In this document: piece by piece, positions 1,866-8,751 of the stretch
How the letters are laid out: each line of letters opens with the position of its first letter
How positions within the stretch are numbered: position 1 is the stretch's first letter
NCBI GenBank assembly: GCA_036378175.1
Contig: DASUWY010000001.1
Coordinates: forward strand, 1 to 64,000
Direction of reading: 5' to 3'
DNA from: Thermoleophilaceae bacterium
Lineage (GTDB): Bacteria; Actinomycetota; Thermoleophilia; Solirubrobacterales; Thermoleophilaceae
Length of the DNA: 64,000 nt
The notes under the pieces: model-generated
The model's database searches: none
What the model was told of the DNA's origin: nothing
What the model saw: only the letters and a program-made list of their open reading frames with translations
Translations under genes and position numbers: made by a program

Positions 1866-3596
1866 CTAGAACGGCGCTGGGTCGGGATCCGTGACGGGAG
1901 CCCAGGGTCCTTCACGTGCGAGCTTCACGCGCTCGGCGGCAGCGCCGTAGGGGAGCATCAGGCCGCGCATGCGGCGGGTGCGGATGAGCCGGTCGACGGC
2001 GGTCTCGCCGACGACCTTGCGCGGCCGCGGCTCAGTCATGACGCGGCGGACGTGACCGACGGCGAGCCAACCGCGCTGGAAGCTGATGCGCAGCCAGTCG
2101 ATCGCCATCGAGGCGGCGGCGCGCAGTTGCTGGACCGGTAGGCCGGCTCGCTTTGGGCGGCTGTGCAGCGAGTTGCCGGCGACCTGGTGGCGGTCGCGGT
2201 TGTGGTCGTGCACGGCTTCCTTGTTCTTGTGGATGTGCAACAGCTCGTGGCCGACCTCGTCGAACTTGCTGATCGGGAGCAGCAGTCGCCACTCCTTCGA
2301 GCACGAGATCGACTGCTTGCTGGCGCAGGCTGCGCCGAGGTGGCGGTGGCGGCAGCGGAAGCGGATGCGCGGGTCGCCCGCGCCGGTGATGTAGAAGCCG
2401 AGTCCGCTGCCCTTGACGTCGGTTTCGCCGCCGCAGTGTTTGCAGCGGGGCATGCCGTGCTCGTCGAACTCGTCGCAGCGAAGGTCGACGTAGCTCTTGC
2501 CCGCCGCGGGTGCGCGCTCGGGCGCGAAGGTCATCACGCCGCGCCGGGTGTTGTGCTCGAAGATCGCGCGGAAGGCGAGCCCGCGGTCGACCGTGATCGA
2601 GACCGGCTCGGTCTCGATCGTGTTGACGATCTTGCGGTGGAGCTCGGGGTACTCGGTGTGCTCGTTGCGGTCGGCTCGGAATTGGTGGGTAGCGACGGGC
2701 AGCTCCGTGTAGTCGTCGATCGCGGGCATCGAGGTGCCGCCGAACCAGAAGCGCTTCGAGCGCTTGCGGTGTCCGTAGAAGCGTGCGCCCGCGGTCTTGT
2801 CGCGCGAACGGTAGAGGTGCCCGTCCTGGATCCAGTAGCTGTAGTTCTCGACGTCCCAGCCGTGGCGGGAGGGGATCTCGTCGGGCACCCGGCGCAGACC
2901 GTTGGTCGGCACATCCGGGATGGCGTCCTCGGGCTTCGCGGCGTCGTCGTGGCGTTGCGCGTTGATCGTCTCGTCGAAGGCCTTGCGCAGCACCCTCGGG
3001 TGGTGGCCCCGCAGCTCTCGGCAGCGCTGCTTGTCGGGGCAGCAGTGCACGAGCGCGGCGTGAGTCTGGTAGCCGGTGCCGTCGACGTGCAGGTGGCGCG
3101 CGACGCGCTTGTCCTTGGCCATCGCGTTGCGGATCACCTTCGCCGCGAGCTCCTCGAACGCGGACACGTAGCGCTGCTGCTCAAGTCGGCAGAAGTGGTG
3201 GTGCACGGTCGAGTAGGGGACCGGACCGTCGAAGCCGGCTTCGGCCCACAGCGCGCTGTTTGCTTCGATCGACGTGTACCACGGCTGGATGTCGGGCGTG
3301 TCGGCGAGCATGAAAGCGATGTAGAGCAGCGCCCAAGAGCCCGGGCGCGGCCTGCGCCCGCGGCCGCAGTAGGTCGGCCGGGTGCGCTCATCGAGCTCGC
3401 CCACCCAGTGGGGGAACTGCTTCAGCAGCCGTAGGAAGCGGACGGCCTCCTTCAGATGCGGGTCGCGCGCGAAACGGGTCGCGTCGGGCAGCGCGTAGGC
3501 GGGCTGGGAGCGCGGGATCCGCTTCACGCCGAACCCCGGCACGCGGCCGCCGGCGGTCGCGGGCGGCTTGCGCTTGGTCCTGGGCTTCCGTGCCAT
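1866..3596 (-). CDS. DDE transposase-like protein, 576 aa
   Basis: Probable RNase-H-fold transposase or a domesticated relative. Candidate acidic residues lie in HLHVDGTGYQ, SITVDRGLAFRAIF and the C-terminal KNKEAVHDHNRDRHQVAGNS block, followed by RPKRAGLPVQQLRAAASMAIDWL, an arrangement seen in IS-encoded DDE enzymes. An inserted CKHCGGE...FRCRHRHLGAAC segment looks zinc binding. The lysine/arginine-rich N-terminus (MARKPRTKRK) would suit DNA binding. The gene is full length with no frameshift. Terminal inverted repeats were not found in the sequence on either side, so it is not clearly part of a complete insertion sequence. A LexA-type box lies 79 bases upstream. Family assignment is from motifs only. 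Confidence 0.65.
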   Translation of the reverse strand: MARKPRTKRKPPATAGGRVPGFGVKRIPRSQPAYALPDATRFARDPHLKEAVRFLRLLKQFPHWVGELDERTRPTYCGRGRRPRPGSWALLYIAFMLADTPDIQPWYTSIEANSALWAEAGFDGPVPYSTVHHHFCRLEQQRYVSAFEELAAKVIRNAMAKDKRVARHLHVDGTGYQTHAALVHCCPDKQRCRELRGHHPRVLRKAFDETINAQRHDDAAKPEDAIPDVPTNGLRRVPDEIPSRHGWDVENYSYWIQDGHLYRSRDKTAGARFYGHRKRSKRFWFGGTSMPAIDDYTELPVATHQFRADRNEHTEYPELHRKIVNTIETEPVSITVDRGLAFRAIFEHNTRRGVMTFAPERAPAAGKSYVDLRCDEFDEHGMPRCKHCGGETDVKGSGLGFYITGAGDPRIRFRCRHRHLGAACASKQSISCSKEWRLLLPISKFDEVGHELLHIHKNKEAVHDHNRDRHQVAGNSLHSRPKRAGLPVQQLRAAASMAIDWLRISFQRGWLAVGHVRRVMTEPRPRKVVGETAVDRLIRTRRMRGLMLPYGAAAERVKLAREGPWAPVTDPDPAPF

Positions 3597-3674
3597 GCCG
3601 GGAGAGTGCTGTCTGCACTGATCCCGGTCGCAAGCACAGCCATCGTCGGCACGATGCCAGTCTACTACGGATTA

Positions 3675-3688
3675 CGAACGTATGTTTG
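3675..3688 (-). promoter_or_regulatory. Putative LexA (SOS) box
   Basis: CGAACGTATGTTTG matches the actinobacterial LexA consensus CGAACRNRYGTTYG at every defined position. It sits in the 116-bp gap upstream of the transposase-like gene (start 3596) and just past the end of the XRE gene, so it would control the transposase-like gene. Confidence 0.6.
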
Positions 3689-3712
3689 TCCCCCAAATAG
3701 GGTAGAAGCCCG

Positions 3713-4123
3713 TCAGCCCGATGAGCGCCGCCGACGGCGCCTCGCACGCTCCGCGAGCAACTTCCCGAGCGCCGCCTGCTCCGCGTCGCGACCGCCCCAT
3801 TCGGCCGATTGCCCGACCTCCGACCACGGCGCCGTGTGCCAGAGCCCGTCGCGCCGCGGTGGCTTGGCTCGGCGTTCGTTCAGCGGGAGCCACTCGCGCC
3901 AGTCGTCGTCGACGAGCTCCTCCCAGTCGATCCCGAGCGCGATCCCGGCGTTCACGAGCCAGCGCAGCGGCGGGTTCTGCGTCTGCCCGCGCTCAAGCGC
4001 CCGGTAGGCAGTCAGGGAGATCCCGATCGCCTCGGCCAGATCGGCCTGCGTCACCTCACGGAAGACCCGCGCGACCGCCAGCCGCGTCTCCTGTCTCGAC
4101 TGCTCGTCACGACGCGCCGGCAT
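3713..4123 (-). CDS. XRE-family HTH transcriptional regulator, 136 aa
   Basis: Helix-turn-helix of the Cro/C1 type at roughly residues 17-60: TQADLAEAIGISLTAYRALERGQTQ is the canonical fold signature, followed by LRWLVNAGIALGIDWEEL. The remaining half (about residues 75-136) is a basic, tryptophan-containing tail of unknown role ending in an Arg run. It is divergent from the RAMA-domain gene at 4271, with a 147-bp shared intergenic region that contains an inverted repeat, so it may regulate itself and that neighbour. Confidence 0.85.
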   Translation of the reverse strand: MPARRDEQSRQETRLAVARVFREVTQADLAEAIGISLTAYRALERGQTQNPPLRWLVNAGIALGIDWEELVDDDWREWLPLNERRAKPPRRDGLWHTAPWSEVGQSAEWGGRDAEQAALGKLLAERARRRRRRSSG

Positions 4124-4153
4124 CGCGCGAGCGTAACGGTCAGGCCGCCCGGC

Positions 4154-4188
4154 GGCTGGCCGCCTTTCACCCTCGGCTCAGGCCAGCC
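4154..4188. promoter_or_regulatory. Inverted repeat in divergent promoter region
   Basis: Perfect 8-bp arms GGCTGGCC (4154-4161) and GGCCAGCC (4181-4188) separated by 19 bases lie between the XRE gene and the RAMA-domain gene. A candidate operator for the XRE protein; no binding evidence. Confidence 0.3.
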
Positions 4189-4270
4189 GCGCGCCGGTCG
4201 ATCTCACGGCCATGAACACGTTGACGATGGCCATGGCCGCGCGATCCCGGTCCGTGCCTACGGTCGCTCG

Positions 4271-5926
4271 ATGACAGCGACCGCGCCCGCGCCGCGCAGG
4301 CGCTACAGCCTCGACAGTCTGCTCGACGTGCTCGGGGCGGTCGCTCGTGTGGCCGACCCGGGCGATCCCGCCTCGGTCTCGACGCGCGCCTACAACGCGG
4401 CGATCGCGGGCTCCCCGTATCCCGACGCACCGACCGCGAACGCGACGCTGATGCGCTTCAATCGCAAGCGGCCGCTGCGGCTCGCCTGGCGGGAGATCGT
4501 GGAGCTGGCGCTGCGCGAGCCGGACAAGCGCACACCGCTGATCACGGCCGCCACGCGAGAGGAGGAGGCGCCCTGGCTCGACGAGCGGCACGTCTTCTTC
4601 GCGCTCAACCGCGTCGCTCGGGCGGAAGAGGTCGGCGAGCTCAGTCCGGCCGTCTACGCGCAGGCCCGCGAGCGCCTACTTGCACGCGAGCGCCGCAACG
4701 GGCGAGGGGAGATCGCTGAGCTGCTGCCGACCGTTGGGCAGGTCGAGCGGATCTGCGGCGACTGGCAGGGCGCGCTGAAGGTCGCCGGCCTGGCGGTCCC
4801 GGCGAAGCGGGCGCCCTCGCGGCGGACCACGCTGTTCGCGGCCGACAGCGTCGGCTGTGCGGAGGCGGCAGCGATCTTCGCTGCCGTCAACGACCGTTTC
4901 CCCTCCTACAGGACACTCGCGCTGTTCGCGCGCGAATGCGGCTTCCAGCTCGCCGACAAGAAACACGGCGGTTCCTGGGCCGGGCAGCTCAAGACCGCCG
5001 GAGCGCTGCTCGCAGACGCGGGGCTGCCCGTCCCGGAGGCGCACCCGCGAAGCGCCGGGCGGCGACGGCGGCCGGACTTTCAGGTGCCTGTCGAGGGAGT
5101 GCCCGGCGCGCCCAAGCCGTCGTGGCGGCCGCCCGCCAGCGAGATCACGCGCGAGCGGGCGATCGAGGCGCTGCGGGCGTTCGACCGCGAGCAGCCTGCC
5201 AGCGCCAAGCGCGGTGTGCGCGAATTCCAGGCCTGGCAGCGCGGCGGCGAATGGCCCGGCCTGTCGACCATCCAGCGCGTCGGGCGCTTCTCCGAACTGA
5301 AGGCGGAGGCGATCAAGCTCAACCGCGAACAAGGGAAGACGCAGCACGTGCAGCAGCAAGAACAACAACAACAACAGCAGCAAGAGGAGGAGGTGCGGCG
5401 AGATCGCCAGCGCGACGATGATCATCACCACGATCACGCCGATCACGATCGCGCCGATGCCGTCGATCACGATCACGAGCGGGCCGCCGAGCTCGACCAT
5501 GATGATCATTACCCGGCGAGGACGTTCGAGATCGGCCCTGCGCTCCGCCGCGCCGCGGCCGCACCAACCCGCACAGTCAGCACAGGGCCGCCCGCTCGCC
5601 CCTACCGTGGGCCGCGGCCCTGGGTGAGCGATCTCGCCGAGGTTGGGCTGCTCGACTCCGACGAGACGCTTGTCGCCACGCACGAGGGGCAGCGCTACAC
5701 CGCCACCTTCGACACCGACGCGGTGATCACGGTCGCCGGGCTCGGGACCGCGCTGACGCTTTCGGAGGCGCGTGCGCTAGTGCGGGGCAGTCGAACGGAC
5801 GGCGGCGGCTGGTCCTACTGGAAGGTCGAGCGCCACGGCGAGCTCGTGCCGCTCAGCCGGTTGCGCGAGCAGTGGCGTGAGCTGCGCACCTACAGCGGCT
5901 GGACTCCGCGCGCCCCGCGGCGCTAG
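4271..5926 (+). CDS. Four-repeat HEAR-like protein with Gln and His/Asp tracts and C-terminal RAMA domain
   Basis: 551 residues from ATG 4271; the open frame extends upstream, but into sequence antisense to the XRE gene. About four helical repeats (residues 12-85, 100-172, 195-250, 293-352) resemble homing-endonuclease-associated repeats, e.g. ITRERAIEALRAF...WPGLSTIQRVGRFSELK. Then come a glutamine run (about 361-372) with a glutamate run, and a His/Asp tract (about 382-415, DDDHHHDHADHD). The C-terminus (about 450-545: LAEVGLLDSDETLVATHEGQRYTATF...WSYWKVER.GELVPLSRLREQW) matches the RAMA domain pattern, which in known cases accompanies restriction and modification proteins and is thought to read DNA modification. 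No nuclease or methylase catalytic motif is visible. Convergent with the next gene, overlapping 4 bp. Confidence 0.65.
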   Translation: MTATAPAPRRRYSLDSLLDVLGAVARVADPGDPASVSTRAYNAAIAGSPYPDAPTANATLMRFNRKRPLRLAWREIVELALREPDKRTPLITAATREEEAPWLDERHVFFALNRVARAEEVGELSPAVYAQARERLLARERRNGRGEIAELLPTVGQVERICGDWQGALKVAGLAVPAKRAPSRRTTLFAADSVGCAEAAAIFAAVNDRFPSYRTLALFARECGFQLADKKHGGSWAGQLKTAGALLADAGLPVPEAHPRSAGRRRRPDFQVPVEGVPGAPKPSWRPPASEITRERAIEALRAFDREQPASAKRGVREFQAWQRGGEWPGLSTIQRVGRFSELKAEAIKLNREQGKTQHVQQQEQQQQQQQEEEVRRDRQRDDDHHHDHADHDRADAVDHDHERAAELDHDDHYPARTFEIGPALRRAAAAPTRTVSTGPPARPYRGPRPWVSDLAEVGLLDSDETLVATHEGQRYTATFDTDAVITVAGLGTALTLSEARALVRGSRTDGGGWSYWKVERHGELVPLSRLREQWRELRTYSGWTPRAPRR

Positions 5927-7338
5927 CGGGCGAGCAGGTAAGCGACGAACGCTGCCGGCAGCGCGCGGGCGCCGTTGACTTCCTGCACCACGGCGCGCGT
6001 GGCGAGCACCCCGCCGTTGAACATCGTGCGCATCGTCTGAGATTCCCGGGCGAGCTTGGTGTCCGAGTACTTGCCCTCAAAGGCGACCGGGCTGAGCGAG
6101 CGGCCGCAGAAATCGACCTCGGCGCTGGTGCTCGTCCTGGCGTACATGACGTGGGTGAAGTCCGCGTAGTGCTCGGGATCGCCGGCCGCGACCTGCCGCA
6201 GCAGGGCGGCACCGAGCTGCTGCTCGGAGATCTTCGAGGTGTCGGGCTCGGGCAGGTGATCGGCTCGCAGGTGGGCCATGCGGGCGAGCAGCGGGTCGGT
6301 GAAATAGACCTTGGCGCGGGCGCTGAGGTTCGGCATCCAGTGATCGCCGAGCTGGTGGCAGGGCCACGCGAGGTAGGACTCGATCAGATTCTGGATCCTG
6401 CGCTCGGCGGTGTGGTGGCTGCCGACGCCGATCTCGGTGGCGACCGCGGACACGTTGACCGGACTGGTCAGGTCCTTCGAGAGCTTCAGCATCAGGTGGA
6501 GGCTCTGGGTGGAGGTGAAGTTGGCGCTGGCGAGCGCGTCGCCGTGGATCACATCCCAGAGGCCGTTGGCGAACACCTGACTGACCTCGCCGCCGTGCAC
6601 GTAGTCGCTGACCGCGCGTGGGAAGCCGCCGACGCGACAGTAGACCTCCCACAATGTGACCAGGTCATCCAGCCACGGCTGCAACTCGTAGGCCGCCTCC
6701 TCTGCTTCGCGGCCGAGGAAGTCGGCCGGCCTGATCGGCGGCGGGTCGGGCAGGCCCGAGAGGCCGGTCGCGGCAACAAACGACCGGAACGACATCGGCA
6801 TCAGTAGCCGGTCCGAATCCGCAGCGCGCCCACGTCGATGCGCGAGCTCCTTCCGCGCCTCCTCCAGATCGCGGGCCGAGGAGCCGGTCAGGACCACGCA
6901 GTCCTCCCCGAGTCCGGTGTTGTCGCGCAACCACTTGATCGCCGTGAACCACTCCGGCACCGCCGTGACCTCGTCCAGGAACCAGTAGCGGGGCTCGGCG
7001 ACCTGACGGGTGAGCTGGTCGCGGCCGACGCGGACGAGCCGGCGCAGATCAGCCGCAGTCAGACCATCGCAGGCGAAGTGCAGGATCCGCCGGCTGTCGA
7101 CTCCGGCGCTGAGCAGGCGCACGACCGCACGCTTGATCTCAACGCTCTTGCCGACACGGCGTGGTCCCCGCAACACGTACAGACCATCGGGGACGATGTC
7201 GTGCAGCGGATCCGGCTCGTACTGGAGGGGCGCGTCGCGAAGGCGCCGCAGGTCCGGATCGTCAAGCTCCCAGCCCTGCGGAGTACGCCACCAGCGGTTG
7301 CCGGCGGTCATCATGCGGCTTAGTTCGGCCTCGTTCAC
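5923..7338 (-). CDS. AAA ATPase with C-terminal DUF4143/PD-(D/E)XK-like domain
   Basis: 471 residues from GTG 7338; ATG at 7314 is an alternative start. Walker A is GPRRVGKS, Walker B is RYWFLDEVTAVPEW, and LTGSSARDL fits sensor 1, giving an AAA_14-type ATPase in roughly the first 230 residues. A winged-helix-like middle (SPVNVSAVATEIGVGSHHTAERRIQNL) precedes a DUF4143-type end with SAEVDFCGRSLSPVAFEGKY, where the spaced D and E-x-K fit a PD-(D/E)XK nuclease core. Members of this group are often viewed as mobile or conflict-linked. The promoter region holds the iterated palindromes at 7344-7487. Longer readings of the frame upstream run antisense to the gene at 7651 and were not used. Confidence 0.8.
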   Translation of the reverse strand: MNEAELSRMMTAGNRWWRTPQGWELDDPDLRRLRDAPLQYEPDPLHDIVPDGLYVLRGPRRVGKSVEIKRAVVRLLSAGVDSRRILHFACDGLTAADLRRLVRVGRDQLTRQVAEPRYWFLDEVTAVPEWFTAIKWLRDNTGLGEDCVVLTGSSARDLEEARKELAHRRGRAADSDRLLMPMSFRSFVAATGLSGLPDPPPIRPADFLGREAEEAAYELQPWLDDLVTLWEVYCRVGGFPRAVSDYVHGGEVSQVFANGLWDVIHGDALASANFTSTQSLHLMLKLSKDLTSPVNVSAVATEIGVGSHHTAERRIQNLIESYLAWPCHQLGDHWMPNLSARAKVYFTDPLLARMAHLRADHLPEPDTSKISEQQLGAALLRQVAAGDPEHYADFTHVMYARTSTSAEVDFCGRSLSPVAFEGKYSDTKLARESQTMRTMFNGGVLATRAVVQEVNGARALPAAFVAYLLAR

Positions 7339-7343
7339 TCGGG

Positions 7344-7487
7344 AAAGTATACTTTTTCGGCTCCCAGCGGCCAAAAAAGTATCGTTTTCTGGCTGTTCGC
7401 GGCCGACAATCCTCGTTTTGGGCCGTAACGGCCGAAAAACTATAGTTTTCTGGTCGGCCACTGCCGATAATGAATACTTTTCCCTGT
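7344..7487. repeat. Iteron-like array of AT-rich palindromes, about 31-bp period
   Basis: Five sites with centres near 7349, 7381, 7412, 7442 and 7473. The clearest are the perfect palindromes AAAGTATACTTT (7344-7355) and AAAACTATAGTTTT (7436-7449) and the near-palindrome AAAAGTATCGTTTT (7375-7388); the third and fifth are degenerate. Spacers also share GC-rich GGCC motifs. The 31-bp step is three helical turns, so all sites would face the same side of the DNA. The array is AT-rich against a GC-rich background and fills the gap between the divergent ATPase and sigma-like genes. Confidence 0.7.
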
Positions 7488-7610
7488 GGCGTCGCTTTCG
7501 TGCTCGTCGGGGGCGGACGCTCGCCGCTCGGAACGGCGAGCTCCCGCGCTCGGACCCGCGCAAAAGTGGCGCGTTAGCCCTAGGAGACGGGGCTGCTCTG
7601 TCTGGTGAGA

Positions 7611-7629
7611 GGACCGGAACGGCCGGTCC
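7611..7629 (+). promoter_or_regulatory. Hairpin in the leader of the sigma-like gene
   Basis: GGACCGG (7611-7617) pairs perfectly with CCGGTCC (7623-7629) across five bases, ending 9 bases before the ribosome site GAAGGAG of the gene at 7651. Function unknown. Confidence 0.3.
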
Positions 7630-7650
7630 GGACGCTAGAAGGAGTGCTTG

Positions 7651-8751
7651 ATGAAGACGAAGTGGAGCGCCGACTGGGACGAGCGTGTCGCTCGCCGCCG
7701 CTGGGAGCAGTCCAGTGACCCTTACCTGAACGACCGCCAAGACGACCGGGTGCCCTATCGCACGCCGGCGTTCGAGCCGCACGACGCCGCCACGAAGGTG
7801 CTGATCCGGGAGTACACGGACATGGCGCGGCTGCCGTACGGCGAGCTGATCGTGGAGCTGCTCGACGAGTGGCGCTGGCTCGACGCGATGGCGCCGCCGG
7901 AGCAGAAGCAGCGCTTCCTTGAGCCGCTGATCGCGGCCATCCGCAAGGACCCGCACAGCCACACCGCGAAGCTCGTGTTCCTGCTGATCGTCTGCGAGCC
8001 GGTGCGCCGCAGCGTCAGCCGCGCCTTCGTCAACGCACGCGGCAGCCTCGACCGGCCGCCCGCTCCCGCGGCGACCTGGCACCGCCGCTCCGAAGCGCGC
8101 ATGCTGCGCGAGATCGAGCAGCAGGCGCTGTTCGACGTCACCCGCGCCGCGACGCTTGAGGCGCTGTACCGCTACCCCGTCCCGGCCCCACGCGCTTTCT
8201 TCCCCTGGCTGCGCGAGGCGATCGCGCACCGCACGCTCAACCATCTACACGGCGAGCTGCCCGAGATCGAGACGACCGCCGGCACGGCAGCCGAGGCCGT
8301 CGCGCTGCAGAACTACCTGGCCGGCTTCGAGAACGCGGCCGCGCCCGCGATGCGAGAAGAAGGCGGCTTCAAGGCCTGGCGAGCGCGCGTCGGGCTGCGC
8401 AGCGTGTTCGAGATCAGCGACAGCTACTACGAGAACAGCATGATCCGAACGATCTGCCAGGACGCGATCGGGCGGCTGCCGCGCCGCCAGCGCGAGTTCG
8501 TCGAGAGCTACTTCTACGCCGAGCTCCCCGTCGAGCAGATCGCCGCGCAGCGGGGCGTCAGCACCAGCACGATCTACAACACCAAGACCCAGGCGCAGGA
8601 CAACCTGCGCGAGGACGACTACTTCTTCTTCGCGCTCCACAACCTCGGCCTCGTGCGCGATCGTGCACGCGCCGCCGAGATCGAGCGGCGCTATCCGGAC
8701 GGGCGCCTCCTCGACGGCCGGCGGATCGTCGCGATCAGCGACGCCGCGTAG
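7651..8751 (+). CDS. Sigma-70-region-4-like HTH protein, 366 aa
   Basis: ATG 7651 follows GAAGGAG at 7638-7644; TTG 7648 is a possible alternative. Residues about 270-315 (IGRLPRRQREFVESYFYAELPVEQIAAQRGVSTSTIYNTKTQAQDNL) form a sigma-70 region 4/LuxR-like helix-turn-helix. The first 250 residues are helical and not recognised; no canonical region 2 (-10 recognition) motif was seen, so a true promoter-selecting sigma factor is uncertain. It heads a same-strand run with the membrane peptide, the DUF5677-like gene and two unknown genes, and is divergent from the nuclease-ATPase across the palindrome array, making it a candidate regulator of the island. Confidence 0.65.
   Translation: MKTKWSADWDERVARRRWEQSSDPYLNDRQDDRVPYRTPAFEPHDAATKVLIREYTDMARLPYGELIVELLDEWRWLDAMAPPEQKQRFLEPLIAAIRKDPHSHTAKLVFLLIVCEPVRRSVSRAFVNARGSLDRPPAPAATWHRRSEARMLREIEQQALFDVTRAATLEALYRYPVPAPRAFFPWLREAIAHRTLNHLHGELPEIETTAGTAAEAVALQNYLAGFENAAAPAMREEGGFKAWRARVGLRSVFEISDSYYENSMIRTICQDAIGRLPRRQREFVESYFYAELPVEQIAAQRGVSTSTIYNTKTQAQDNLREDDYFFFALHNLGLVRDRARAAEIERRYPDGRLLDGRRIVAISDAA

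Follow-up and report, generated by a model that had tools for sequence, protein, structure and literature searches.

A regularly spaced array of five A-tract sites lies at positions 7337–7487 of the 64,000-nucleotide stretch of Thermoleophilaceae DNA analysed here (the window), at the start of a gene for a divergent AAA+ ATPase, and arrays with a fixed, clade-specific pitch recur upstream of related ATPase genes. We propose that the array is a private operator, to which the ATPase probably binds cooperatively through its winged helix, repressing its own promoter. We infer the ATPase as the binder, cooperative binding and repression as the outcome from features that were computed, namely the array, its overlap with the promoter, its conservation with the gene, the distribution of its pitch on the protein phylogeny, the private sequence of its units and the winged helix in a modelled homologue. 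Across the family, the same features suggest that each ATPase binds and controls its own gene.

The original prediction described evenly spaced AT-rich palindromes at this place, two of them perfect, at a distance of three helical turns. The array is real and far above chance. Its sites comprise two perfect 12-bp palindromes, two partial palindromes and one weak one, with dyads (sites 1 to 5) at 7349.5, 7381.5, 7412.5, 7442.5 and 7474.5, and hence spacings of 32, 31, 30 and 32 bp (mean 31.25 bp); three turns is about right, although the pitch that holds across the family is 32/33 bp and not the 31 bp first given. When up to two mismatches are allowed, AAAGTATACTTT has four matches in 64 kb, every one inside the array, compared with 0.05 expected by chance and a maximum of one over 100 shuffles. 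The identity of region 7338–7490 to itself is 0.50 at a shift of 32 bp and 0.53 at 61 bp, while 1000 dinucleotide shuffles of the region never exceeded 0.40 at 30–33 bp or 0.47 at any shift of 8–79 bp. Promoters in GC-rich genomes are AT-rich, and chance or such composition could in principle have left sites of no function here; the shuffle controls, together with the conservation in homologues, the sharp 22/23 and 32/33 peaks and the neighbour-gene control presented below, reduce this to a negligible probability.

The repeat unit is wider than first noted, an AT core between GGCC/CGG arms (consensus nGCCGAAAAAGTATAGTTTTCnGGCT). The perfect palindromes are the core of site 1 (7337–7362; AAAGTATACTTT at 7344–7355) and that of site 4 (7430–7455; AAACTATAGTTT, site 4 having 10 of 13 pairs). 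Site 2 (7369–7394; core AAAGTATCGTTT) and site 5 (7462–7487; core AATGAATACTTT) are partial, and site 5 is the weakest palindrome of the array, with 5 of 13 pairs. At site 3 (7400–7425), the A-tract core CAATCCTCGTTT is weak and the GGCC arms are strong, the site being preserved chiefly through its TTTTGGGCCG arm.

The array adjoins the start of the ATPase gene (5923–7338, minus strand; 471 residues). The gene most likely starts at GTG 7338, because the resulting N-terminus (MNEAEL) aligns with the N-termini of homologues, and with this start 5 bp separate the start codon from the first palindrome core. The best-placed promoter for the gene is the sigma-70-like TTGGCC-17-TATACT (7346–7374, minus strand), 7 nt ahead of the GTG, and a second sigma-70-like promoter, TCGGCA-17-TATAGT (7439–7467, minus strand), lies within the array. 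These are the two promoter-like sites found in 7200–7800, where 0.1 would be expected, and both are inside the array and on the ATPase strand. Their -10 elements sit in the cores of site 1 (TATACT) and site 4 (TATAGT) and their -35 elements at the adjacent site, TTGGCC being supplied by the GGCC arm of site 2. With TATACT only 7 nt from the start codon, the ATPase mRNA is probably leaderless; TAnnnT is also found 6–7 nt ahead of the start in several ATPase relatives. The -10 and -35 elements of the ATPase's own promoter are covered by the sites, and binding of the ATPase would therefore repress its own transcription.

On the other side of the array, a protein with sigma-70 region 4 is encoded divergently (7651–8751, plus strand), and Pfam bears out the neighbours as first described, with AAA_14 and, weakly, DUF4143 matched on the minus strand and the sigma-70 region-4 protein on the plus strand. 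An array between divergent genes, one of whose products has a DNA-binding sigma region 4, might be bound by a separate regulator, either this protein or a host factor, that controls the ATPase gene or both genes, and the sigma-like protein had indeed been named as a candidate binder. Comparison does not support this candidacy: none of five sigma-like homologues checked has an array, homologues are absent at all nine of the ATPase relatives' loci checked, and in genome G246 they sit on a different contig. Of 201 genomes of the order, 6 have a sigma-like homologue, counting the genome of the window itself. The array goes with the ATPase gene rather than with the sigma-like gene, which we judge to be outside the system. 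Control by any separate regulator is also hard to square with six paralogues in one genome having six unit sequences and with a pitch that follows the ATPase tree (see below), and we consider it very unlikely.

The window also encodes a RAMA-domain protein (3809–5926, plus strand), with a low-complexity Q/H/D stretch and a C-terminus resembling PADLOC PDC-S14 (6.9e-11). An RstR/XRE-like HTH gene (3713–4123, minus strand) adjoins it on the opposite strand, and these two genes and the ATPase gene may form a small defence cluster. A 576-aa ORF at 1866–3596 (minus strand) appears transposase-like by eye and has no Pfam or PADLOC match.

By its sequence, the window ATPase is a divergent AAA_14-DUF4143 protein, corresponding to PADLOC PDC-S01 (AAA+, winged helix and PD-(D/E)XK nuclease). 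It contains Walker A (GPRRVGKS) and Walker B (WFLDE) motifs and the nuclease signature EVDF...FEGKY, and its AAA_14 domain (residues 53–187; 6778–7182, minus strand) matches PF13173 above the curated cut-off (E=5.3e-18). The DUF4143-like region (residues 283–423; 6070–6492, minus strand), which ends in a PD-(D/E)XK signature, scores 22.2 bits against a Pfam cut-off of 28.1. DUF4143 is matched at E≤0.01 by eight of the nine members of the window-clade set, in which the signature residues E407, D409, E421 and K423 are invariant; as far as a signature of this kind can tell, the ATPase is a probable DNA-cutting enzyme. Seven PADLOC PDC-S01 models match the protein (best 3.5e-22, taken by E-value without the PADLOC cut-off), and it aligns with canonical family members at 98.9% probability, its identity to the canonical member L160 being about 19%.

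AlphaFold given the window protein's sequence alone produced no usable model (pLDDT 35), and L160 was therefore modelled instead, from an input alignment of the window protein, its closest relative L009 and relatives on viral contigs. By our reading of secondary structure and motifs, the L160 model (pLDDT 91, pTM 0.90) consists of an AAA+ domain, a winged helix (helices 232–246, 255–258 and 264–276; strands 280–286 and 297–306) and a PD-(D/E)XK-like domain. Alignment to L160 would place the winged helix, the proposed DNA-binding part, at about residues 273–349 of the window protein (6292–6522, minus strand). Variability in the recognition helix does not exceed that in the remainder of the C-terminal half, and thus no specificity code is visible. 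When the model was searched with Foldseek, the best PDB match was a Walker ATPase from Pyrococcus abyssi (2qen), followed by DNA-bound Orc1/Cdc6 and ORC subunits (probability 1.00, TM about 0.3). A PDB search by sequence found no relative for the window clade and, for canonical members, only a short midasin match.

The resemblance first to 2qen and then to DNA-bound Orc1/Cdc6 initiators raises the question of whether the array acts as a nucleation site for an active assembly, origin-like or as a self-tether; the ATPase would load on the repeats, and ATP state or invading DNA would turn its nuclease on or off, promoter repression being a by-product. A pitch near whole helical turns, the invariance of the nuclease residues in the window clade and the standing of the family as a phage-defence candidate (PMC12988326) would all agree with such a role. 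However, the Orc1/Cdc6 match is weak at a TM of about 0.3, and the sites overlap promoter elements and occur only upstream of the gene. We therefore regard nucleation as unlikely, and return to the private operator in examining related genes.

The search upstream of homologues that had been suggested as a check on the array was run, and similar sites are present ahead of close relatives. Homologues 42–66% identical to the window ATPase have the same A-tract palindrome type at their gene starts, with dyads near -11/-13, -32/-35 or -43 from the ATPase start. Examples are CAAAAAAGTATACTTTTTTG at L006, CCCGAAAAGGTATACTTTTTTGGG at L014, which has a second half-site 32 bp upstream, and CCCAAAAAAGGTGTGTTTTTTGGG at L015; the ATPase starts of L012 and L009 have the same palindrome type as the window, while L013 has two sites 32 bp apart and L016 is arranged alike. 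The exact 14-mer AAAAGTATACTTTT has one occurrence in 232 genomes of the order, ahead of the L006 ATPase, and the window's own copy, with one mismatch, is unique in its genome. Around the L009 ATPase, short ORFs (464–895, 2796–3170 and 3502–3891 in that locus) look PIN-toxin-like by eye.

To survey pitch beyond these relatives, we analysed the 210 bp ahead of the P-loop region in 107 other ATPases, 105 or so of them from phylum and class surveys, with the window ATPase left out. Direct repeats upstream of these genes are in excess at two pitches alone, 22/23 and 32/33 bp, together with multiples such as 46 and 66, and neither of two coding windows of the surveyed genes shows a 22/23 or 32/33 peak. 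Counting an array wherever the score was at least 9 at any of the four spacings (22, 23, 32 and 33 bp), arrays were found in 63 of 139 ATPase upstream regions compared with 4 of 84 upstream of neighbour genes (Fisher p=7e-12, an optimistic value because relatives are not independent); the neighbour-gene control leaves out divergent promoters that share an intergenic region with the ATPase. On a maximum-likelihood protein tree, the spacing class (22-class, 25 genes; 32-class, 28 genes) needs 4 changes, compared with 18.0 for shuffled labels, and none of 500 shuffles was as low. The spacing class follows the protein tree, and protein type therefore predicts geometry across hosts. Members of the 32 clade have sites every 32/33 bp that are often palindromic, those of the 22 clade have direct repeats every 22/23 bp, and both classes can occur in one genome. 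The close relatives of the window ATPase fall in the 32 clade, and the window spacing of 32/31/30/32 bp, like the 32 bp of L013 and L014, agrees with the pitch of that clade. Of the readings in the original prediction, cooperative autoregulation by the ATPase is thus the half that gains support, from sites upstream of homologues and a spacing that follows the ATPase phylogeny, with binding itself presumed.

The 22/23- and 32/33-bp arrays are absent from 54 of the 107 surveyed ATPases, some of which have one large palindrome and others nothing clear. At L033, L036, L048, L058 and L086, which lack a 22- or 32-bp array, one very large palindrome lies near the start, possibly a third operator architecture. 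Our conclusions rest on the direct-repeat pitch because the inverted-repeat score alone detects poorly. One inverted-repeat pick, at L138, was rejected as a dispersed palindrome with dozens of copies across the genome, the true array there being a 32-bp direct repeat; this palindrome, TGTCCCAAATGGGGACAGTCCCC, occurs at dozens of places in the 3.4-Mb genome G535 and is unrelated to the ATPase arrays.

The pitch rule was further checked on held-out plasmid loci from several phyla and on viral contigs, which were fetched by protein alone after the rule had been seen. Held-out 32-clade loci have a pitch of 32, 33, 64 or 66 bp in Parabacteroides, Bacteroides, Glaesserella, Fusobacterium, Vibrio, Acinetobacter and Criblamydia, and most distinct viral contigs of this clade also fit. 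For the 22 clade, Shinella, Novosphingobium and Sulfitobacter have a pitch of 22 or 23 bp, as does Thermus, where the result is not significant by shuffle. A distant 22-clade viral set was mixed, its closest members having 22 or 44 bp and its distant ones single palindromes or nothing. Plasmid loci of Rhizobium and Emticicia and one of two Thermus loci lack an array, and a first viral scan queried with the window clade gave no matches.

While pitch is common to a clade, the sequence of the repeat unit is private to the gene. In G032, six 22-clade paralogues have the common 22/23-bp pitch (one as 46) and six different unit sequences, and in G622 the repeat unit of L099 is found exactly only in its own array, with one other place at two mismatches. 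Paralogue-private units would be unexpected for a host regulator and expected for a binder encoded by the gene itself. Within otherwise different 32-clade repeats, for instance those of L139, L141, L161 and L170, the octamers AAAAGTGT and AAAAATGT recur, and it is possible that they represent a family-shared half of the site.

Array and gene also appear linked at the DNA level. When relatives from different contexts are compared, a block of homology frequently sets in at or close to the array and continues through the gene, as if the two were a unit of transfer; the downstream ends of these blocks mostly lie beyond the fetched stretch, and some blocks extend well past array and gene. DNA homology runs from the repeat through the ATPase gene in the pairs L031/L039, L057/L078, L118/L120 and L123/L124. 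An upstream similarity score of at least 10 is reached by 74% of different-genome pairs above 55% protein identity and by 14% of those below 25%, in windows that take in some coding sequence in the window clade; low-identity pairs from the same genome are raised as well, and this comparison is therefore not our main evidence. Operator and gene could have been inherited together with no direct contact between protein and array.

Such linkage, the presence of relatives on plasmids and viral contigs and the iteron-like form of the repeats would also suit the iterons of a replicon, or the ends of a transposable element served by the ATPase, a reading the original prediction had put forward and that has found no support. 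The array motif has no second copy at another end or anywhere else within the 64 kb, and a search of the genome allowing one mismatch gave no further copy. A Pfam scan of eight proteins, the ATPase and seven of its neighbours, found no replication initiator. The family can have as many as 14 members in one genome, and the conserved blocks that reach well beyond array and gene likewise argue against a mobile or replicating unit, which we hold to be quite improbable.

We postulate that, as a private operator, the array is bound by the winged helix of the ATPase with one dimer or protomer pair per palindromic site. With about three turns between sites, adjacent protomers would stack on one face of the helix. 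The resulting repression would keep a potentially harmful nuclease scarce, and the same scheme may operate family-wide in two geometries, that of the 32 clade and that of the 22 clade. More speculatively, the array could serve as a ligand that keeps its own AAA+ nuclease inactive within a repressing assembly, and the nuclease would be freed by invading DNA or when the array is lost or titrated, each PDC-S01 gene being self-contained and self-addressed; we put this forward as a tentative idea. On that reading, many PDC-S01 units could coexist without cross-talk, because repeats and protein co-diversify under a fixed 22/23 or 32/33 rule. The private, clade-pitched array is a predicted specific DNA ligand for each ATPase of a common and unvalidated family and, if this is true, would explain how up to 14 members share a genome without mutual interference. 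For annotation, an upstream 22/23- or 32/33-bp array helps to mark the correct start of an ATPase gene.

Several known systems resemble parts of this arrangement. Iteron/Rep plasmid origins have directly repeated sites at whole-turn spacing. They share the whole-turn repeats with the present array, which by contrast has no Rep among the scanned neighbours and lies on the promoter of an ATPase whose family is multi-copy in other genomes. Orc1/Cdc6 initiators have, to our knowledge, no nuclease domain. The archaeal proteins (2qby, 2v1u) combine AAA+ and winged helix and are bound to origin DNA, whereas here the match is weak (TM about 0.3) and there is no sign of an origin. With repeats that are iteron-like in form and a fold that is distantly Orc1/Cdc6-like, the likeness to iterons and origins is one of shape. 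In toxin-antitoxin autoregulation, a protein of the cassette uses several cooperatively occupied palindromes to repress its own promoter. The window system differs in being a single gene without antitoxin, encoding a large AAA+ nuclease, and in its clade-specific pitch.

With the PDC-S01 or AAA_14-DUF4143 (COG1373-type) family, the window ATPase shares the models and the AAA_14 domain, but it belongs to a divergent branch with DUF4143 below the cut-off. According to PMC12988326, PDC-S01 ranks fourth in abundance among the defence systems of prokaryotes, one survey counting 29,494 instances in bacteria and 9,986 in archaea, and is unvalidated, validation being pending for most PDC candidates. 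Upstream arrays are not mentioned in the accessible DUF4143, COG1373 and PDC-S01 literature, as covered by a full-text search that included few subscription papers (PMC12988326, PMC13356809, PMC4406477). In PMC4406477, RNA of the Thermus AAA_14-DUF4143 gene TT_P0211 is up 6.6-fold with plasmid when Argonaute is present, which we take as a lead only. The nearest described mechanism is that of RptR, a repressor of a phage-defence island promoter that binds three direct repeats and has a minimal palindromic site (PMC12255303). The likeness lies in the repeats on a defence promoter and in the palindromic site; RptR, however, is a dedicated repressor of small size whose single conserved site is TAGCTA, whereas for the arrays described here we propose the ATPase-nuclease itself as the binder, and the site differs from gene to gene.
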